From a virus: DNA of 43,475 nt. How positions within the stretch are numbered: the stretch's first letter is position 1; every line of letters starts with the position of its first letter. Both the position numbers and the translations under genes were made by a program. Shown piece by piece: positions 2,073 to 41,748 of the stretch. Location: positions 1-43,475 of the IMG/VR virus record IMGVR_UViG_3300025010_000111; one strand, given 5' to 3'. The notes under the pieces are model-generated. The model had not been told where the DNA came from. It ran no database searches and saw only the letters and a list, made by a program, of their open reading frames with translations.

Positions 2073-2495
2073 ATGTCTATGATTCCTAATCTGTCCGAAA
2101 TTCCTGACAAGGCCCCTGTTGAAGTTGGCGAGTATGACCTGACCATCTCTAAGGTCAAAGAGACCAAGTCTCAGCGTACAGGCAGGTATGGTTGTCAGCT
2201 TATTATTAATATCGACGGAGAAGATAACGCTTCAACTATTTTTCATACTCTCTGGTATGGTAACTACAAAGATTTTCAGGGAGACGATGAGGAAAAGAAC
2301 AACCTCATGTGGCGAATGGTAAAAGATTTTCTTCGCGCACTGGGGCTTGATCCTGACCAAGAAACCGACGAATCAGATTTGGTCGGCCTCAATTTTACGG
2401 CTGAACTCAGTTTTAATGATGGTATGAGTACAGACGATGATGGTAATCCGATCAAGGTTGGTCAGCCAAGGAATGAAATTGCTCGCGTTGTTTAA
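2073..2495 (+). CDS. SSB-like / DUF669-type DNA-binding protein
   Basis: This 140-residue acidic protein begins with a short N-terminal segment (IPNLSEIPDKAPVEVGEYDLTI, about residues 4-25) and a beta-rich core (QLIINIDGED, TIFHTLWYG, LNFTAELSF) with an acidic mid-region. This pattern is typical of phage DUF669 proteins, which are regarded as OB-fold single-stranded DNA binding or recombination helpers and are usually encoded beside Sak4-like ATPases and PD-(D/E)XK nucleases, as here. It has a strong AAAGGAG site but sits after a separate 138-base leader, so its expression may be controlled independently of the upstream genes. Confidence 0.6.
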   Translation: MSMIPNLSEIPDKAPVEVGEYDLTISKVKETKSQRTGRYGCQLIINIDGEDNASTIFHTLWYGNYKDFQGDDEEKNNLMWRMVKDFLRALGLDPDQETDESDLVGLNFTAELSFNDGMSTDDDGNPIKVGQPRNEIARVV

Positions 2496-2507
2496 ATGAA
2501 TTACTAT

Positions 2508-2940
2508 GTGAGTGGAATAGGGAAACAGTCTGCTACGGGGATAAACCCGCGTTGATGTCTACCCGAGGCTGAGATAAAGTGATAACACGCTACAGACTAT
2601 CCACTCACTTTTAACCAAGGAGCTTTATGACCAAGTTTAATTCGATATTAGAGTCTAGTTACCACTTTCAGTTAACTAGGTTTGACATTGCCTGAACAAT
2701 GTCATTCTGAACGAGGCGTTGATGTGACGCCTACAAGATGTTGAATTAAGCAAAATTTGCTGTTCACTTATGAACGAACTGTTGAATGGTTTGCAAGTAA
2801 GTGAACAGCAACCTACAATTGAATGTATGAATCTAATAATCCACATAGATCTGGCCTATGGTTAGGATTATACCTAAAGTAGCATTTGTGTAATGCTATA
2901 GCTCGTAGCCGCCTGACAAAAGATATCGGACGCAGAGCTA
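2508..2940 (+). ncRNA. Candidate large structured RNA, a chain of hairpins
   Basis: The 565 bases between the SSB-like and ligase genes hold no convincing long gene but many inverted repeats. (1) GTGAGTGGA 2508-2516 with TCCACTCAC 2600-2608, closing AGTCTG 2527-2532/CAGACT 2593-2598 and CGGG 2536-2539/CCCG 2546-2549. (2) CTAGTTA 2655-2661/TAACTAG 2673-2679. (3) GACATTG 2684-2690/CAATGTC 2697-2703. (4) AGGCGT 2714-2719/ACGCCT 2727-2732. (5) A perfect 14-base-pair stem, TTGCTGTTCACTTA 2757-2770/TAAGTGAACAGCAA 2798-2811. (6) ATAATCC 2836-2842/GGATTAT 2865-2871 enclosing CATAG/CTATG, or alternatively TTAGG 2862-2866/CCTAA 2873-2877. (7) AGCATT 2881-2886/AATGCT 2892-2897. (8) TAGCTC 2899-2904/GAGCTA 2935-2940. 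A terminator follows at once. I find no tRNA cloverleaf or known ribozyme core. Phages encode large ornate RNAs of similar length (ROOL, GOLLD), but membership is not shown. Confidence 0.6.
2627..2695 (+). CDS. Possible 22-residue leader peptide inside the hairpin region
   Basis: An ATG at 2627 follows a well-placed AAGGAG (2618-2623, spacing 3-4) and opens 22 codons, MTKFNSILESSYHFQLTRFD plus two residues, ending at TGA 2693. The frame runs through hairpins 2 and 3 of the RNA candidate, so translation and folding would compete. It could be a leader peptide, the relic of a gene, or chance. No similarity is recognised. Confidence 0.25.
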   Translation: MTKFNSILESSYHFQLTRFDIA

Positions 2941-2941
2941 A

Positions 2942-2985
2942 GATATGAGAGGTATAATACCAATGCCTCTCATATCATTTTTATT
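2942..2985 (+). terminator. Rho-independent-type terminator after the structured RNA
   Basis: GATATGAGAGG (2942-2952) and CCTCTCATATC (2966-2976) form a perfect 11-base-pair stem with a 13-base loop, followed by ATTTTTATTTATCTTT. The T-rich tail fits termination on the plus strand. It would define the 3' end of the RNA candidate and insulate the ligase gene. Confidence 0.75.
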
Positions 2986-3037
2986 TATCTTTACTAAGAA
3001 TTAATCTGCTAAAATATTAATGTTTAGCAAAGATAAA
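2984..3037 (+). promoter_or_regulatory. Nested inverted repeats in the ligase leader
   Basis: TTTATCTTT (2984-2992) is complementary to AAAGATAAA (3029-3037), and inside it GCTAAA (3008-3013) pairs with TTTAGC (3023-3028). The two right-hand arms are adjacent, so they would stack. The element lies between the terminator tail and the ligase ribosome-binding site (AAAGGAG, about 3047-3053). It may be an operator, a leader structure or the place of a promoter; I cannot choose among these. Confidence 0.4.
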
Positions 3038-3060
3038 TATCCTTCTAAAGGAGCCAACCT

Positions 3061-4827
3061 ATGAATCATGAACAACTCATAAAAGAAATCTCCCAAGCTA
3101 ACATGGCCTATGCTTCTGGCATACCATTCATGACAGACAGCGAATACGATCTGTTGTGGCAACAACTTTATGCCATAGACCCTCATAATAATATCCTTTA
3201 CCATACCGCACAAGGTCGGACTGCACTGACTGGCAAAGCCTGGCACAAGCATCCAATATATGGAACGAATAAAGCATTCAACATGCTCGACCTTAAGCCA
3301 TTCCTTACAAGGTTTGGCAGCTACAAACTTCGAATCGAGCCCAAATATGATGGCTGTGCAGCAGTTATAACTCTCACAGATACTGGAATTAACATAACTC
3401 TTGAGGGTGACGGAAGATGTGGGCGGGATATAACTCACTTAATGCCATACATTACGTTTCCATTCCAGATGAGACATTTTCAACCAGTTGAAATACTTAT
3501 CCCGCTGAATGAGTGGAATTCAGATTATGGAGCAAACCCAAGAAATGTAGTTGCAGGTTGGTTAGACCGCAAATATGACAAGCCTTCTGCCATGATGACA
3601 GCCATACCCCATAATCATGGCAACCTATTTGAAGAATATACCTACTCCGGTAGCTTAGAAGCTATGGGAGATTTTCTGCTTGAGACATACAATAAATGGT
3701 CAAAGATCTATCCAATGGATGGACTTATGATTAAGGTTGCAGATGAGAAAGTTCGGTTAGTTGCAGGTAATAATGGCCAGACCAATAACTGGAGCATAGC
3801 CTGGAAGCCTCCAATCCAAGTTAAAGAAACAAAAGTTGTTAATATTGAATGGAATATCTCACGTCTCGGCAGGGCAATTCCAACAGTTGTATATGAACCA
3901 ATTGAACTTTGTGGTACAACAAATAATCGCGTAACAGGTAATAATGCTGCTTGGATAATAAATAAAGGAATTACATCTAATTCAGTTATAACTGTAGGAA
4001 AAGCTGGAGAGATAATTCCTAAAATAATTACTGTTAAAGAACCATCTGAAAATGATGCACATGAACAACTTCCAGCTTATTGTCCAAAGTGTAATGATGT
4101 ATTATCTTGGGATGGAGTACATCTTGTTTGTAATGGACCAACCTGTATAGCAAAATCAATTGTCTCAATTGCTTACTTCTACTCTCAGAAAGGCATCAAA
4201 ATCGACGGAGTTGGCGAAGGTATTATAGAAAAGCTCCTTCAGAATGAAAAATGTTATTCAGTTCTTAGTACCAAGCCTTGGGCCTTACTCGATCCACTTA
4301 GCTACGACCTTGTACCATACATTATCAATATGATTGGCGTAGCAATTTATAGCAACATAGCTGAGCAAGTATTTTCAATGAATAATCAATGCACAATGGC
4401 ACATTTCGTAGCTGGTCTTGGCTTGCCAGGATTAGCATATAAGTCATCTTTGAGGCTCTGTCAATATTTAAAAACTGGCCAGATTAATATTCACATAACT
4501 GATAATGCCAAACGCAGCTTTATTACGGCTGCTACTATTTATACTGAAGCAATTAAAGAAATGAAAAACTTCTCTTTCGCCCAACTCCCTAGTGAAGCGA
4601 AAGCAATTTATTGCATTACCGGATCATTAAGCCAGTCACGAGAAACTATGATTGAAATTCTGAACGGTTACGGATATGAATTTTCATCTGGAGTAACGAG
4701 AGAAACAAATTACTTAGTTGTCGGTGATGATCCAGGCAGAACTAAGATAGAAAAGGCAACTCGTTACAACATCCCTCAAATAACTGAGGAACAACTTTTT
4801 ACATTACTGCAAAAGGAGCATAATTAA
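3061..4827 (+). CDS. ligA: NAD-dependent DNA ligase
   Basis: At 588 residues this is a little shorter than cellular LigA (about 670). The adenylation motif KYDG is at residues 95-98 in the phrase EPKYDG, with K95 the nucleotide-accepting lysine. An OB-fold region follows, then a four-cysteine zinc finger (C341, C344, C357, C362), a helix-hairpin-helix region (GVGEGIIEKLL) and a C-terminal BRCT domain (about residues 512-585, with GYGYEFSSGVTRETNYLVVG). The enzyme seals nicks using NAD+, during replication and recombination. It starts at an ATG after AAAGGAG. It follows a terminator and a structured leader, so it probably opens a new transcription unit. The assignment is secure. Confidence 0.95.
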   Translation: MNHEQLIKEISQANMAYASGIPFMTDSEYDLLWQQLYAIDPHNNILYHTAQGRTALTGKAWHKHPIYGTNKAFNMLDLKPFLTRFGSYKLRIEPKYDGCAAVITLTDTGINITLEGDGRCGRDITHLMPYITFPFQMRHFQPVEILIPLNEWNSDYGANPRNVVAGWLDRKYDKPSAMMTAIPHNHGNLFEEYTYSGSLEAMGDFLLETYNKWSKIYPMDGLMIKVADEKVRLVAGNNGQTNNWSIAWKPPIQVKETKVVNIEWNISRLGRAIPTVVYEPIELCGTTNNRVTGNNAAWIINKGITSNSVITVGKAGEIIPKIITVKEPSENDAHEQLPAYCPKCNDVLSWDGVHLVCNGPTCIAKSIVSIAYFYSQKGIKIDGVGEGIIEKLLQNEKCYSVLSTKPWALLDPLSYDLVPYIINMIGVAIYSNIAEQVFSMNNQCTMAHFVAGLGLPGLAYKSSLRLCQYLKTGQINIHITDNAKRSFITAATIYTEAIKEMKNFSFAQLPSEAKAIYCITGSLSQSRETMIEILNGYGYEFSSGVTRETNYLVVGDDPGRTKIEKATRYNIPQITEEQLFTLLQKEHN

Positions 4828-6263: not shown

Positions 6264-7694
6264 ATGCAACTCTTCCAAATTGAAGAACGTAACATCTCAG
6301 ACATTATCATCAAAGATCGCGCACGATCAGCTGTAGGCGACATTTCTAGCCTAGCTGATTCAATCTCGATGGTCGGCCAGCTTCATGCGATTCTCATAGA
6401 TTCAAACAACGTCCTAATTGATGGCTTACATCGCATTGAGGCGTTTAAGAAACTTGGCAGAGAAACAATTGAAGTTCGAGTATTTGACGGAATTACTGAG
6501 GATGATCATTTTTTGATCGAACTTCTTAGTAATATGGACCGTAAGGAATTTCTGTGGCATGAAGAGATTGACCTCAAGTATAAGTTGCATAACTATTGGG
6601 TAGAATCTGCAGGCAAGGAAGGCAAATCTTGGGGCTATAGAGAAACAGCCAAGAGGCTCAAATGCAGTCTTGGAGGCTTATCTACTGATCTTGCTTTCGC
6701 AGAAGCTCTTAAAGTCTTTCCGATCCTCAAAGACCAGTCTACTAAAGGCCGAGCTAAAGAAGCCTACAAAGCTCTTGGTGAACAAGCTAAGGCACTTCAG
6801 CGAATGGGAAGTTTCACAGACACAGAAAAGGAACGCTTGGTTGCATTACAGAGCGGATTTATGACTGCACCGATAAAAAATACTGTAACTCAGAATGTGT
6901 TTGAGAAAACCAAGCAAGCCAAAGAAAGACTTACCGAGTTCGATGAAGATGCTGAAGACCTTAACGATGAACAAGAACCAACCCGTTCTAACATTCAAGT
7001 AATTTATGTAGCCGAAAACTATAAAACATTCCTCGACAAGATTCCAAACAACTCTGTTGGGATGGTAGAACTTGATCCACCGTATGCAATTGATTTTAAC
7101 GACAATTATGGTAAGACAAATAAGATCGAATGTAAAGCTCAAGATTGGGACGAAAAAGAGCTTTATGATTTTTACTTCAATTATCTTCCCCTTGTATATG
7201 AGAAGATGCTTGACTGTAGTTGGGCTTTAGTCTGGACAGGCAAAGAACATTTTATTCAGATCAACAACATTGCACGAGACATAGGATTTGGTACTCAGTC
7301 TCCTGGTTCATGGAATAAAGTTGGTGGCAGTACCAATAAACCTAAAACAAACATGGTGAGCAACTGGGAAATGTTTTTGCTACTGCGTAAGGGAAATGCA
7401 CAGTTCAATACTCCTAGCTTGTCGTCTTCAATTAACATAAGCACAGTCAGTTCAAGTCAACGAATTCATCAGTGGGAAAAACCGATTGAACTTTATGATC
7501 ATTTCTTAAAAGCCCTAGGTAAACCTGGAACACTGTTTATGAGCCTCTTTGCTGGTTCTGGTAATTGCTTGATCAGCGCGGCTAAAGAAAAAATGATGCC
7601 AGTTGGTTGTGATAAGAGCCAGAAGTATATTCCAGAATTTTACCAGAGACTTGAGAATTATCTTGGGATAACTGCTGAAGTAGAAGGACTTTAA
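6264..7694 (+). CDS. ParB-like domain fused to a DNA methyltransferase
   Basis: Residues 1-75 form a ParB/sulfiredoxin-type N-terminal domain (SLADSISMVGQLHAIL, then LIDGLHRIEAFKKLG). The C-terminal half is an adenine-N6/cytosine-N4 methyltransferase with DPPY at residues 271-274 and the SAM-binding FAGSGN at 429-434. The catalytic motif precedes the SAM-binding motif, which is the beta-class order. Phages use such orphan methyltransferases to protect their DNA from restriction, and the ParB-like part probably contributes DNA binding or NTP hydrolysis. No restriction enzyme gene is nearby. The product is 476 residues long. Substrate base and recognition site cannot be told from the sequence. 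Confidence 0.88.
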   Translation: MQLFQIEERNISDIIIKDRARSAVGDISSLADSISMVGQLHAILIDSNNVLIDGLHRIEAFKKLGRETIEVRVFDGITEDDHFLIELLSNMDRKEFLWHEEIDLKYKLHNYWVESAGKEGKSWGYRETAKRLKCSLGGLSTDLAFAEALKVFPILKDQSTKGRAKEAYKALGEQAKALQRMGSFTDTEKERLVALQSGFMTAPIKNTVTQNVFEKTKQAKERLTEFDEDAEDLNDEQEPTRSNIQVIYVAENYKTFLDKIPNNSVGMVELDPPYAIDFNDNYGKTNKIECKAQDWDEKELYDFYFNYLPLVYEKMLDCSWALVWTGKEHFIQINNIARDIGFGTQSPGSWNKVGGSTNKPKTNMVSNWEMFLLLRKGNAQFNTPSLSSSINISTVSSSQRIHQWEKPIELYDHFLKALGKPGTLFMSLFAGSGNCLISAAKEKMMPVGCDKSQKYIPEFYQRLENYLGITAEVEGL

Positions 7695-8408: not shown

Positions 8409-10931
8409 ATGATAATCCCTAGCATATCAACTACAGCAACTCCGCAGAAAGAAGGTTCTTTCAATTGCTTAGCTGTAGAGTGCGCTCCAACTGATAACAT
8501 ACTCACGGCTGAAATTGCAATGGTTGGCGAAGCTCCAGGCGAAATCGAAGTCCTGAAGAACGAACCATTCGTAGGTCCGACAGGATCTCAGCTTAATCGC
8601 ATCTGTGCAGCAGTCAGACTAGCTAGATACAAAATCTACTTAACCAATGCTTGCAAAGCCAAGTTTCCAAAAAATAATACAGCAGTATTATGGACTGACA
8701 AAGGATATCGCCATCCAGACTGGTCCAAGTTGCAATCCGCACTAATTGATGAACTTGCTCAATTTCCTGGCAAAGTCATAATGTTGCTCGGTGCTACTCC
8801 AATGAGACTGTTGCTGGACGAGCCTAAGTTCGATTCAATTACAAAATATCGTGGTTCTTTCTACCATGCTGAAGACTTTCCTCATTTGAAAGACAAACTG
8901 GCTGGCAAGATAATAGGTTTGTCTTATCATCCATCTTTCACCCTCCCATACGGACAGCCAATCCATTTCTACACGATGATTGCAGACTTCACAAAAGCAC
9001 TGCGAATCATTGAAGATCCAGAATTGCTTACCGATAATGTGGAAATAAAAATCAAGCCTAGCTTTGAAGAAATCATGCAGTTCTATGCATTGATTAAGAC
9101 AAAGCAATATGTAGCTTTTGACATTGAAGCTACGCCAGAATTTATTACTTGCTACTCATTGGCTGTTTATCATGATAATAAGATTTTATCTATGTCTATT
9201 CCTCTAATGAACAATCAAGGCAATTATTGGGCAACAGCAGAAGAGATAAAAATCTGGACTGGCTTAGCAGAAATACTTAATGATGAAGCCATAGGCAAGA
9301 TTTGTCAAAATGGAATGTTCGACATAATGTTTACTTTTCGTACCATGATGATTAAAACAGATAACTTTTATTTTGACACCATGCTTGCACAGCACATATG
9401 CTATACTGAACTCCCAAAGGGACTTGATTATCTAACTTCAACATACACATATTATCCCTATTACAAAGACGAAGGAAAGCAGTCACATCTTAAGGCTATC
9501 AAGAACTGGCCACAATACTGGACTTATAATGCCAAAGACTCAGCCTACTTATTGCCAATAACCGAGAAGCTCCTAGAAGAATTAGGTGAATTCGATTCTA
9601 TGGATGCTATGGATTATACAATGAATCTCCATAAGCCACTCATGGAAATGGAGTTCAATGGCATCCTGACTGATACAGATGGAATTGAAAAGATCAAATC
9701 TGAGTATGAAGTTAAACTGATTGATCTTCAAGCAGAGCTTAACAAGCTAGCCGGCAAGGAAATTAATCCAGGTTCAGCGAAACAAATGGTTGCATACTTT
9801 TACGGAACTTGTATGATTAAACCATATGTAAATCGCAAAACTGGATCAGTCACATGCGATACTGTAGCCTTACACAGAATTGCAAAGAAAGATGTTAAAG
9901 GTTCTGCAGAAGCTAGAATCATCATAAAGATTAGAAAGTACCAAAAGCTTGTATCTACATACTTTAATATCCAAGTCGATGAAGATAAGAAACTCCGATG
10001 TAATCACAAAATCTCTGGAACAGTCTCAGGTAGGATTGCCACAGAAAAGACTTATTTTGGTACTGGATCGAACCTTCAGAATCAGCCTTATGTTTTTAAA
10101 TATTATCTCATTACAGAAGATGGTTGGATTCTTTGTGAGGTTGACCTTGCCAAGGCTGAAGCTCATGTAGTTGCATATCTAACTCAAGATGCTAACATGA
10201 TCCAGTCGTTCGAATCAGGAATAGATGTGCATAGCTTTAATGCTAGCAAGATATTTAATGTTCCAATTGAAGAAGTTATTCATGAAGCAAAAACTAAAAA
10301 GGCTGATCAGAAATCTACAATGCGTTACATGGGCAAAAAAGTAGTCCATGCCTCGAACTATGCAATGGGGCCACAGACATTCTCTGACAACCTAGCTGCT
10401 GAAGAAATTTTCAAATCTCAATCAGAATGCAAAAGACTTCTTGATAGTTATTCTGATCGCTTTCCTGGCCTGAAACGCTGGCATAGATCAATCGAAGAAG
10501 AAGTTCAAAAGAATAGGGTTCTATATAACTTGTTTGGCCGGCCTCGCAGGTTCTTGGGTGAAATGAATGCAGCACTATTCAGGAATGCCTATAGCTACAA
10601 GCCTCAGTCAACTGTTGCAGAATTGCTTAATCGAGGAATGATAAAAGTAGTTAACGATCCTAGGCTTGGCAAAGATGGCTTTGATATTAGGTGTATGACA
10701 ACTGTTCATGATTCGTTTGTATTCAGGTTTCATAAAAGCCAGATTCCAAACTTACCTCAGATTCTTCTTATCATTAAAGATCATCTGACACACACATTTA
10801 CTTACAAGGGAAAGAGTTTTACTATTGGCTTGGATGCCAAGATCGGCACGCAATGGGCTGGTAATACGGCTGAAATCAGTAAGTTCACTCAGGAAGAATG
10901 TGATAAAGCTATTGAGAAAATAGGTTTTTAA
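8409..10931 (+). CDS. polA: Uracil-DNA glycosylase / family A DNA polymerase fusion
   Basis: This 840-residue protein has three parts. Residues 30-190 match a family 4-type uracil-DNA glycosylase (GEAPG, EPFVGPTG, LGATPMRLL, SYHPSF), although not all cysteines of the usual iron-sulphur cluster are seen. A 3'-5' exonuclease follows, with FDIEA carrying D238 and E240. The polymerase has motif A at D579 (DLAKAEAHV), the O-helix (RYMGKKVVHASNYAMG, residues 639-654) and motif C with H767-D768 (TVHDSF). Compared with E. coli Pol I, motif A has lysine and histidine where Q708 and R712 stand, and the O-helix has H647 at the F762 position. This is the likely replicative polymerase; the fused glycosylase may remove uracil next to synthesis. 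Confidence 0.92.
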   Translation: MIIPSISTTATPQKEGSFNCLAVECAPTDNILTAEIAMVGEAPGEIEVLKNEPFVGPTGSQLNRICAAVRLARYKIYLTNACKAKFPKNNTAVLWTDKGYRHPDWSKLQSALIDELAQFPGKVIMLLGATPMRLLLDEPKFDSITKYRGSFYHAEDFPHLKDKLAGKIIGLSYHPSFTLPYGQPIHFYTMIADFTKALRIIEDPELLTDNVEIKIKPSFEEIMQFYALIKTKQYVAFDIEATPEFITCYSLAVYHDNKILSMSIPLMNNQGNYWATAEEIKIWTGLAEILNDEAIGKICQNGMFDIMFTFRTMMIKTDNFYFDTMLAQHICYTELPKGLDYLTSTYTYYPYYKDEGKQSHLKAIKNWPQYWTYNAKDSAYLLPITEKLLEELGEFDSMDAMDYTMNLHKPLMEMEFNGILTDTDGIEKIKSEYEVKLIDLQAELNKLAGKEINPGSAKQMVAYFYGTCMIKPYVNRKTGSVTCDTVALHRIAKKDVKGSAEARIIIKIRKYQKLVSTYFNIQVDEDKKLRCNHKISGTVSGRIATEKTYFGTGSNLQNQPYVFKYYLITEDGWILCEVDLAKAEAHVVAYLTQDANMIQSFESGIDVHSFNASKIFNVPIEEVIHEAKTKKADQKSTMRYMGKKVVHASNYAMGPQTFSDNLAAEEIFKSQSECKRLLDSYSDRFPGLKRWHRSIEEEVQKNRVLYNLFGRPRRFLGEMNAALFRNAYSYKPQSTVAELLNRGMIKVVNDPRLGKDGFDIRCMTTVHDSFVFRFHKSQIPNLPQILLIIKDHLTHTFTYKGKSFTIGLDAKIGTQWAGNTAEISKFTQEECDKAIEKIGF

Positions 10932-18600: not shown

Positions 18601-20912
18601 TCTTCAAGATTAACTTTGCCTAATGCTTCTTGATTTTCACCAACCTGAAACTGTGGAACACTACCTACTTGTCGTTCATTAGTGAACCCACTCTGCAAAC
18701 CTCCTGGCAAGTTTCTAGGAATTTCAGTTTCAACTGCTTGGATATTAGTTGATGGAACATCTCCAAGAGCTTTGGCAATTTGTTTAAACCATTGTTGGCG
18801 TTTATTCTGTTCAGCCAAAGATGGAACAACATTTTGTTTTGCTTCACCTTTGGATGCTGTATCACTTTTGACATTACCTTCAATTTCATTAAGTTTCGTT
18901 TCAAAGAATTTCTTCCTCATGAATGCTTCCGTTCCAGGAGTCATTTCTTCCTGACGAAGATTCAATTCTTTTTTAATTCCCTGCCAATAATTTTCAATAA
19001 TCTTTCTTTCTTCAGTGGTAAAACTATTATTTATATAAGTCTTTACATAGTTTACATAATCTTCAATTTGTCTTAGATTATGTTCTTCCTCAAGAGTTCT
19101 TGAAGGTGCTTTCTCATTTAAAGCTGATCTCTCTTGAGATTTATTTGCAATTATTTGATTCGCATAATCAGCTATAGATTTTGGAACTATTTCACTTTCT
19201 ATAATCTTTGCTGATTCAGCAGCATCTTTTTCTATACCAACCTTCTCACCTACATTAACAGTCCCAAAAAGTTCCTCAAGATATTTCTGTCTACCATCTC
19301 TAGTAGTATATGGAGCAAAAGCTTTCTTAACCTCAGGCGTTTCTTTATCAAGTAACTCATTACGCCTTTTGTTCAATGTAATAAGTTTATCTTCAATTAC
19401 TTTTCTTTCTTCTGCACTTGTTGAAGTTTTAGCATCTAATGCATAAGGATCAAACTTACGATTATATTGTTCAGAGAGAGTTGTAATCTCCTTATCAATA
19501 TTTGTAATTCTTTCATTAAGTTGGCTTGCAGATTCATACCTATGATCATTTAATTTATTTTCAATTTCTTTTGCTTGCTTCTCTTCAGGAGAAAGAGCTT
19601 CATATTCCTTCTTAGCCAGTTCTTCTTTCTTCTGGATTCCAGAATTAATCCGATCAAGAAGGCTCTGGCTATTTTTATTATCCTCAACAATCTTTCTGAT
19701 TAATTCAGCCGGATCGACATTTAACTCTCTTGCTTTCTGATCAAGTTTATAAGGATCATCAAGAATTTCTTTATTCAAATTAAGAGTATCATTTAAAGTT
19801 TGGATACTTTGCCCAAGTTCGTCTTTTTTCAAATTGAGAATATTCGCCGCTCTTCTGTCAAGCTCAATCTCTGCATCAGTCTTTCCAGGTCCAGGATCTT
19901 TTGCTTGTGCAGAAAAGCCTGCATTAACTGCTGCACCAGCTCCACCACCAATCGCACCAGCAGCCATACTCTCAATAATGCGCTCAACATTATCAGCAGT
20001 CAACAGCTTATCATCTGTATTCGCTACAGTATTAAGAACACTAAGCAGTTCCTGACCACCTTCTTGCAAAGCTTCTTGAGGAATATTTGTAAGCAATTCC
20101 TTTGCAGACTTTTTAACCATTCCAGTTGAACCCTTACTCAGGGCATCAACAAAAGTATCTACCAGCTTACTATTACCACCAGCAAACTCTAGTGAGGTTG
20201 CCAGAGCACCAAATAGCAATGCAGTCTCAGGGGCATCAATGCCTTTATTTTGAAGCAGCTCTGCATACATTCCACCAGATTCTAACGGCATAACTGATCC
20301 GGCAATACCAACCTTACCACCAAACTTCTTCAATGCCTGGCCAGTAAGTTGCTTTCTTACTTGAGCTTCTGTTAAATCTCCAATTCCACGTTTAACTGAC
20401 TGTTTGACAGCTTCATCAATTCCTTTTTTAAGAATTGTTCTACCTGCCAAACCTCCGGCAACAGTACCTGCACCTGGAGCAATAGCAGATCCTGCAACAG
20501 CCCCAATCGCAGCCTCAGCCATACTAGGAACAAGTTCACCTAAAGTTCCTTGTGCCCAGTCAATAGCACCACCGATTCCTGCTTCACCACTATAAACATC
20601 TTTAAAAGAATGCTTCTTAGGATATAATTTTGCTTCTTCAATATTCCTGTTATATCCTTTCATGCCAAAATTTTGCACAGCCTGGCCAGCAGATTCAATC
20701 CCAAGCTTTTTCAATCCTGAGCCTGCAAGTGCAGTAGCACCATAAGCAGAGGCTTGAAGATTCTGAAGTCCTCGCTGAACGCCTGGAATAAAATCAGAGT
20801 CACTTGCTACAGCAACAGGTTTCTTTACTGGATAACCAGACGCAAACATCTTAGCAAATTCGTCTGTCTCATCTTCATTACTACTTCCAAACATCTTATC
20901 AAACTCATCCAT
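15621..20912 (-). CDS. Giant internal virion (polyvalent-type) protein with HExxH motif
   Basis: This is a 1763-residue protein. The N-terminus repeats a short motif (DEFDKMF at 2-8 and DEFAKMF at 17-23). Residues 131-160 and a second stretch near 310-330 are glycine/alanine-rich and hydrophobic, resembling glycine-zipper membrane segments. A long charged coiled region follows (about 340-660). HENKH at 850-854 fits an HExxH zinc-metalloprotease motif (LWHENKHVLDNL). The rest is helical. Such giant proteins in short-tailed phages are usually packaged and ejected ahead of the DNA, and may carry enzymes to protect it ('polyvalent proteins'). It is the last gene of the virion block, coupled to the upstream gene by a TAATG overlap. 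No muramidase or helicase motif was seen. Confidence 0.75.
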   Translation of the reverse strand: MDEFDKMFGSSNEDETDEFAKMFASGYPVKKPVAVASDSDFIPGVQRGLQNLQASAYGATALAGSGLKKLGIESAGQAVQNFGMKGYNRNIEEAKLYPKKHSFKDVYSGEAGIGGAIDWAQGTLGELVPSMAEAAIGAVAGSAIAPGAGTVAGGLAGRTILKKGIDEAVKQSVKRGIGDLTEAQVRKQLTGQALKKFGGKVGIAGSVMPLESGGMYAELLQNKGIDAPETALLFGALATSLEFAGGNSKLVDTFVDALSKGSTGMVKKSAKELLTNIPQEALQEGGQELLSVLNTVANTDDKLLTADNVERIIESMAAGAIGGGAGAAVNAGFSAQAKDPGPGKTDAEIELDRRAANILNLKKDELGQSIQTLNDTLNLNKEILDDPYKLDQKARELNVDPAELIRKIVEDNKNSQSLLDRINSGIQKKEELAKKEYEALSPEEKQAKEIENKLNDHRYESASQLNERITNIDKEITTLSEQYNRKFDPYALDAKTSTSAEERKVIEDKLITLNKRRNELLDKETPEVKKAFAPYTTRDGRQKYLEELFGTVNVGEKVGIEKDAAESAKIIESEIVPKSIADYANQIIANKSQERSALNEKAPSRTLEEEHNLRQIEDYVNYVKTYINNSFTTEERKIIENYWQGIKKELNLRQEEMTPGTEAFMRKKFFETKLNEIEGNVKSDTASKGEAKQNVVPSLAEQNKRQQWFKQIAKALGDVPSTNIQAVETEIPRNLPGGLQSGFTNERQVGSVPQFQVGENQEALGKVNLEDIKLTFPGQEINQSPDGSISVKFKNGKGLTINSIQAAGQDLVKLAIETGQMSKDGKILGITTGNEILLDENFADNKTLWHENKHVLDNLDMITEADDSALNKEFNKLRKAGKLEFALSTHKDPKQRMVENRANMFAQIMVNRESYRNTAFGKVIQRVMDFFQQLLSFGKQTVSGLAREVESGKIYERQAEALREGMPMFEVRETPTQKISDDVYHQMYTERNSLVRTIGQTLRMRGHEIKQLIDKGLGSISTRLKNVDPMLRTEIRNLDFRTSQKIVTALRIAHPLLEKTKQMSPQDKFVWDAARRNSDEVKIKELAEKYNMTEDQEKLRSVLDQIRQDAIDVGYDVGFIEEYWPRIIKDQEGFLQTTKGISQRPVITDAIKVYADKLGMTVEKFEIEYPEQAADIASNTILGRNLGIGGPGNIQARQYETVPPELNKFYMDSDAALMQYIYSMTKKIEARRFFGKVPERIASLKAEKKRKQVMLEEYTKANNAARIEDVSGDLLRIEQELDKYKLQRDYTENIGTYINDLRMSGRIQAEDEKVVRDILDSRFHEHGATGIVNAYKNMSYIDVMGSPISALTQIGDLAWAMYVGKVWTPRGLADTIKNVGKAITKKSEITKEDLGIERIAQEFADGTTLGNAVSWVFKKVGLERIDSIGKETLINNAFSNYKVMANTEAGRTSLLKQIKPIFGTQSESVINDLLANNPTDNVKMLLYHRLLDFQPVALSEMSEQYLKSGNGRVFYMLKTYTLKQFDVFRNEAWHKIKTGERDQVIEGIGNMIKLVSLLTLANAGADELKDLLLGKETKFEDHVIENFLTMGGASKYVRMQTAREGLGSGLIGQILPPFRFVNSISKDLNQLYGSYITGDTIDFDHARIVESIPIAGKLYYWHYGRGEDYKKSSNEQEFGKLSKEVGIFKKQLENSEDKRTFLNSNLDGFKQMKLHENFQSALNRNQAVINKLKKIDQTTNVRERLGQLQQQREVILKRYFEVR

Positions 20913-40821: not shown

Positions 40822-41129
40822 TATTCAAATCCTATTCCAAAAGAATTGCCAACACTTTCAGCCTTAGATATCCTATAAGTACCACGAAAAGGAATACTTC
40901 TTCGATTATTATTAGCATCTAAAACATAAGTAATACCATCATAGACAAGCGGAGTCCAATCAGTATCAGTATCTACAGCAGGATTTTCTACCTTAGGAAT
41001 CTCAATAGCAACAGTTTCAGTAGTAACAAGTCCTATAATAGAAACTGATCCATTAAGATTTAAATTATCTATAATTAATATCTTATTTGCAGCAGCTGTT
41101 GTTGGTGCTATTAATGTTTTTGCCCTCAT
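40821..41129 (-). CDS. Small virion-type beta protein of unknown function
   Basis: This 102-residue, beta-rich protein (ANKILIIDNLNLNGSVSIIG, then VAIEIPKVENPAV) resembles small head-decoration or fibre-stem domains. It starts after AGGAGAATATT and follows a strong hairpin at 41186-41215, so it may lie in a separate, lower-level part of the transcript. No family is recognised. Confidence 0.5.
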   Translation of the reverse strand: MRAKTLIAPTTAAANKILIIDNLNLNGSVSIIGLVTTETVAIEIPKVENPAVDTDTDWTPLVYDGITYVLDANNNRRSIPFRGTYRISKAESVGNSFGIGFE

Positions 41130-41185
41130 AATATTCTCCTATATGATAATCATGATTAGATAAATATTTATATTAACATAAAACC

Positions 41186-41215
41186 TGTAATAATAAAGTT
41201 TCCTTTATTATTACA
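41186..41215. terminator. Strong hairpin downstream of the capsid cassette
   Basis: TGTAATAATAAAG (41186-41198) and CTTTATTATTACA (41203-41215) form a perfect 13-base-pair stem with a 4-base loop. It follows the small head gene on the minus strand. The tail on that strand is AGGTTTTATG, a weak T-run, so partial termination or 3' end protection of the capsid message is likely. The plus-strand side has TTCTTTTTTA, a better tail for antisense transcripts. Confidence 0.65.
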
Positions 41216-41246
41216 AGTTCTTTTTTAATATGTCCTAAGCACTATA

Positions 41247-41702: not shown

Positions 41703-41748
41703 CAGTATTAAAATTAGTCTTGACCGTTCACTTATGAACACCAAGTTA

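Follow-up and report, generated by a model that had tools for sequence, protein, structure and literature searches.

The stretch at 2496-2985 of the window, by which we mean the whole 43,475-base virus record analysed here, lies between an SSB-like gene and a DNA ligase gene and is a tandem array of four independent + strand modules, A to D, and not one ornate RNA. We have very little doubt that the four are real, conserved structured RNA modules. We tentatively suggest that the gap between the two genes is an exchangeable small-RNA cassette locus whose modules act in trans, and we infer that the target is probably host translation or RNA-directed defence. The modules and the end of the array are as follows.

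2508-2608, + strand: module A, a closed multi-stem RNA with stem P1 at 2508-2516/2600-2608, an inner stem at 2527-2532/2593-2598 and a hairpin at 2536-2539/2546-2549.
2641-2745, + strand: module B, with stems P1 at 2641-2649/2737-2745, P2a at 2655-2660/2674-2679, P2b at 2683-2690/2697-2704 and P3 at 2715-2719/2727-2731.
2753-2812, + strand: module C, a long hairpin with a 14-bp stem at 2757-2770/2798-2811 plus an inner stem.
2815-2976, + strand: module D, several hairpins, the last at 2942-2976.
2942-2986, + strand: terminator-like hairpin of 14 pairs followed by a T-rich tail (ATTTTTATTT), the probable 3' end.

The strongest evidence comes from compensatory changes in homologues. Across 10 distinct sequences of module B, 99.3% of the cells of its 28 pairs were paired, compared with 30-51% when the partner was slid, and eight pairs were doubly changed against 0-3 when slid. 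Module C was 91% paired over 15 distinct sequences, with nine pairs doubly changed. All pairs of module A were kept (100%, four distinct sequences); three were doubly changed, and none when slid. Because the same sequences served to draw the structures of A, B and C, the paired percentages are biased towards those structures and the double changes are the stronger evidence; the double changes were counted under a control that ignores relatedness (a) and one that corrects for it (b). The covariation counts cover A, B and C, and module D is known from four sequences. A chance origin of the structure is excluded by the compensatory changes, and protein coding was rejected as the cause of conservation because the changes follow pairing. 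The RNA strand is the + strand, since 33 cells of module B are G-U pairs on it, which an RNA from the - strand would turn into A-C mismatches.

Folding energies agree. The minimum-free-energy fold of 2490-2990 on the + strand was -158.1 kcal/mol (z = -7.66), and none of 100 shuffles was as good; the - strand folds well too (z = -6.39). When the whole window was scanned in 120-nucleotide (nt) segments at 300-nt steps (mean z -0.3, standard deviation 1.3), the best + strand segment was 2701-2820 (z = -5.9). The strongest local fold of that scan lay elsewhere, at 41101-41220 on the - strand (z = -7.4), between head genes. The original prediction, a hairpin-dense stretch without a supported long gene, is thus borne out: all the stems it named are present, the 14-bp stem and the enclosing stem 2508-2516/2600-2608 can be read directly in the sequence, and no long open reading frame (ORF) is conserved in the gap. 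Its proposal that the stretch is dedicated to non-coding RNA, cleanly ended at the 3' side and possibly of a new class, is supported by the covariation found in homologues for A, B and C and by the lack of any Rfam match.

The same slot can be followed in related phages. SSB homologues turned up in 30 viral contigs, and in 40 by alignment query, the two sets overlapping; in about 30 contigs the proteins are 76-100% identical, many of them 90-99%, and the SSB-ligase distance runs from 283 to 1355 nt. The set of modules in the slot differs among close relatives, and both gaps laid side by side and an all-versus-all search of the pieces indicated that each module is gained or lost singly. Module A is in the window, its near-twin L003, and L007, L010, L012, L015 and L017. 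Most close relatives have module B, as do L020, L029 and L055, while module C, or at minimum its palindrome, occurs in all 30 loci. Module D was seen in the window, L003, L005, L006, L008, L009 and L022 and, in a diverged form, in L019 and L020; other relatives carry unrelated structured pieces or small ORFs in the same slot. At the end of contig L055 (1-1190) the SSB-gap region is inverted beside the ligase gene, perhaps through an assembly join.

Independent gain and loss of modules does not fit one co-folded 490-nt RNA, and here the original prediction, which had likened the region to the ROOL and GOLLD RNAs, is not supported. GOLLD (RF02032) and ROOL are structured phage RNAs without known function that often lie near tRNA islands (PMC12286853), so that phage-encoded structured RNAs near tRNA islands are an already known kind, and the phage setting, length and hairpin density of our region are all reminiscent of them. 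However, the window has short separate modules in place of one RNA of several hundred nt, and neither model matches: Rfam 15 at the gathering threshold gave no match in the window, and even at E up to 10 the region 2400-3060 gave none, the ROOL and GOLLD models included in both searches. The Rfam GOLLD model does detect GOLLD in L344, a contig that also carries the ACGAGGC RNA described below. We regard a single ornate RNA of this kind as extremely improbable.

Several relatives hold tRNA-like RNAs in the slot. In L004, L007, L024, L025, L036 and L055 these have the acceptor, D-arm and T-arm sequences of a tRNA around an abnormal middle. Others stand kilobases off the slot, for example L011:1170-1270 and L016:1574-1674, which share the same insert on different acceptor stems, as if the insert had been exchanged between scaffolds. 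RNAs of L011, L016, L311 and L334 passed the gathering score of the Rfam tRNA model, their anticodon arm being replaced by an insert of 43-78 nt; ARAGORN reported none of these four, and it called the L024 RNA a tRNA with a four-base anticodon. The remaining tRNA-like RNAs are candidates, and the output of the pattern script that lists them also contains chance matches. In L004:4554-4716 and L007:4680-4844 the inserts contain 18-19 nt (GAGTAGCGGCGAGCGAAAA) of 23S rRNA (E about 1e-6) and otherwise differ; the rRNA assignment comes from the context of the matching stretch in a Patescibacteria genome. The earlier statement that no tRNAs are seen holds for the window, where ARAGORN found 0, Rfam none, and no cloverleaf with an anticodon is present, but not for the slot of its relatives.

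Such RNAs might be taken for tRNA genes that have degenerated into structured debris, and the replaced anticodon regions would suit a decaying tRNA cluster. We consider this very unlikely, because neither the retained acceptor, D and T arms nor the compensatory changes seen in the modules would be expected of debris. The lack of a normal anticodon arm makes a decoding role for the relatives' RNAs unlikely as well. In their retained arms they resemble the phage tRNAs that are reported to evade or block retron and other defence (PMC11555353); they differ from the tRNAs described there in having no normal anticodon arm, and the window has none at all. The small stable RNAs other than tRNAs that are encoded within the tRNA cluster of phage T4 may be a further parallel.

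Module B is linked to a wider group of RNAs by one hairpin.

2711-2739, + strand: ACGAGGC-hairpin motif (ACGAGGCGUUGAUGUGACGCCUACAAGAU), in module B and common to RNAs of many other phages.

This hairpin (ACGAGGCGU...ACGCCUACAA) fits ACGA-GGCGU..ACGCC-UACAA, the form by which a four-way-junction RNA (R1) is recognised. The search pattern, AACGAGGCGTN{3,14}ACGCCTACAA, is a stricter replacement for a loose one that matched mostly protein-coding DNA. Its hits numbered at least 120 in viral contigs and 35 in genome contigs, many of the latter from Patescibacteria, and the reversed pattern, which keeps composition and self-complementarity, hit 2 in viral contigs. Among 170 distinct sites of a looser form of the hairpin, 67 had a T-arm-like sequence right upstream and 59 overlapped an ORF of at least 100 codons, so some sites are coding matches. 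The motif is common to module B and to RNAs adjoining phage tRNAs.

At 42 sites the hairpin is part of a four-way junction, P1-GUAG-P2-GAAYAACGA-P3-UACAA-P4-GAGA-P1'. Stems P1 and P2 covary strongly (92.4% paired versus 37-45% slid); the figure is for these two stems, P3 being fixed in sequence by the search pattern and P4 having been recognised by eye. Most non-coding hairpin matches are a covarying four-way-junction RNA that, like the modules, found no match in the searches of Rfam 15. In phages it occurs for example at L296:9770-9885 and L311:7400-7480, often immediately after a tRNA-like RNA. Of 22 cases in the genome set, 11 had a promoter-like sequence immediately upstream (control 5.5%) and 10 a terminator-like sequence downstream (control 17%), and the RNA of these contigs (L385-L417, many Patescibacteria) is probably a separate small RNA. 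Rfam searches of representative motif loci, at gathering and relaxed thresholds, returned nothing credible besides tRNA, GOLLD (L344) and a hammerhead (L332). We regard the hairpin, together with the junction RNA that holds it, as an apparent new RNA class, though it may be described outside the literature searched. Full membership of module B in that class was rejected: model R1, built from the junction set, matched it weakly (17.4 bits, E 0.065) and in the hairpin part alone, and the P1/P2/P4 layout is missing from B.

Two further types of RNA carry the ACGAGGC hairpin. One (L213:598-790, L280, L318, L377, L409) reads CUGCUAC..AAAGGGUCAG..AAGCGUGCG and has a possible pseudoknot GCUAC/GUAGU that changes to GCUGC/GCAGC. 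The other (L320, L335, L341, L350, L383, L428) has GUUAGCU..AAAGGGUCUAAUG..GUGUUGCGUU upstream in several cases.

The main rival to a trans-acting cassette is a cis-acting region, in which the 3' untranslated region of the SSB transcript and an attenuator or leader would protect or end the message, or couple translation of a short ORF to folding. The features on which it draws are these.

2617-2695, + strand: putative Shine-Dalgarno sequence AAGGAG, ATG at 2627 and a 22-codon ORF entering module B; an in-frame start is present in module-B loci.
2982-3039, no strand assigned: dyad surrounding a possible extended -10 promoter (TGCTAAAAT) that would serve the ligase operon, with a reverse-strand self-match of 79%, conserved in relatives.

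The 22-codon ORF (2627-2695) is the only notable + strand ORF of the gap. In 13 of the 13 loci examined an in-frame start lies 21, 24 or 27 nt before the same module-B codon, preceded in most by a purine-rich AGGA/GGAG-like sequence that we read as a Shine-Dalgarno sequence; the end of the frame varies. Translation into module B is plausible, and of all the evidence this conserved ORF speaks most strongly for B acting in cis. The order of a terminator-like hairpin and then a putative promoter also suits a cis-acting region. One terminator-like hairpin was found where shuffling leads to 0.7 expected, and the 2942-2976 hairpin is kept in diverged module-D relatives without the T-run. Nevertheless, A, B, D and the tRNA-like RNAs are gained and lost beside unchanged neighbours, the gene downstream varies between relatives, and the ACGAGGC hairpin occurs in unrelated phages with no common neighbour past close relatives. 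We think a cis-acting region unlikely, if still a serious competitor.

Module C raises the alternative of an element that acts as DNA: an origin, a recombination hot spot or an operator, its hairpins working as DNA and centred on a palindrome, GTTCA-N4-TGAAC.

2762-2775, no strand assigned: palindrome GTTCACTTATGAAC, a dispersed phage DNA motif inside module C.

The palindrome (GTTCANNNNTGAAC) has three copies in the window (2762-2775, 18674-18687 and 41726-41739) where 0.05 are expected, 3-8 copies per record in 14 related records, with 0-1 for the reversed pattern, and a place in all 30 SSB loci. In several records the copies share a 4-base core or its complement. It is possibly a phage operator or recombination site. 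Yet a DNA element accounts for module C only, the G-U pairs of module B point to RNA, and the modules turn over despite conserved flanks, and we hold this explanation of the whole region to be distinctly improbable.

For the trans-acting cassette that we prefer, the following course can be proposed. Modules A-D would be co-transcribed with the SSB gene and would fold independently as they emerge from transcription, and the 3' end would be made at 2942-2986, ahead of a new putative promoter. The modules might then be cut apart, as their closed terminal stems and A/T-rich linkers suggest, and released as small stable RNAs. In the last and least certain step they would act in trans, mimicking tRNA or rRNA or serving as RNA decoys, with host translation or RNA-directed defence as the target. 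The tRNA shapes of relatives, and the 23S rRNA piece found there, suggest that the target is the translation machinery of the host or the nucleases that attack it. Action on the host would also explain the fast turnover of modules; quick exchange of a piece while the rest of the genome is conserved usually marks accessory genes facing a host that changes.

Several points weigh against this proposal. Neutral or regulatory elements would also be expected to turn over fast. With its conserved short ORF, module B may act in cis or be translated, and part of module C, overlapped by the dispersed palindrome, may be a DNA site. A search of the genes neighbouring the hairpin motif found no defence-related partner; families were shared by at most 14 loci, with no clear partner past close relatives.

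A wider claim, possible but doubtful in our estimation, is that phages carry RNA cassette islands, the RNA counterpart of protein anti-defence islands. The small RNAs in them would be exchangeable, many with a tRNA acceptor/D/T scaffold or the ACGAGGC hairpin as their core, and would diversify as decoys for host machinery directed at tRNA or rRNA; the hairpin and four-way junction would be a new widespread RNA class that also stands alone in Patescibacteria. Phage accessory genes are sought as proteins. If unrelated folded RNAs do replace each other in one slot, some of them in the guise of tRNAs that lack a normal anticodon arm, such searches would be missing an entire layer of accessory functions. 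The ACGAGGC hairpin offers a handle on it, being abundant, present in a covarying host RNA and absent from Rfam 15, and its partner can be sought directly.

Neither the gap nor the SSB-like protein had a BLAST match among annotated phages, and no such locus or motif was described in the literature searched, subscription papers being mostly outside its reach. The + strand gene order is an AAA/Sak4-like gene, a small ORF, the SSB-like gene and the ligase, the last two being the anchors of the slot; the gap between them, 2496-3060, has no conserved long ORF.

2073-2495, + strand: SSB-like gene (DUF669-like), left anchor of the slot; an ORF with a weak Pfam DUF669 match slightly below the cut-off, present in 30 contigs.
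3061-4827, + strand: NAD+-dependent DNA ligase, right anchor of the slot, identified by Pfam and PHROGs.

Elsewhere in the window, 6264-7694 encodes a ParB-like/DNA methyltransferase fusion, and 8409-10931 a DNA polymerase A with an N-terminal uracil-DNA-glycosylase-like domain.
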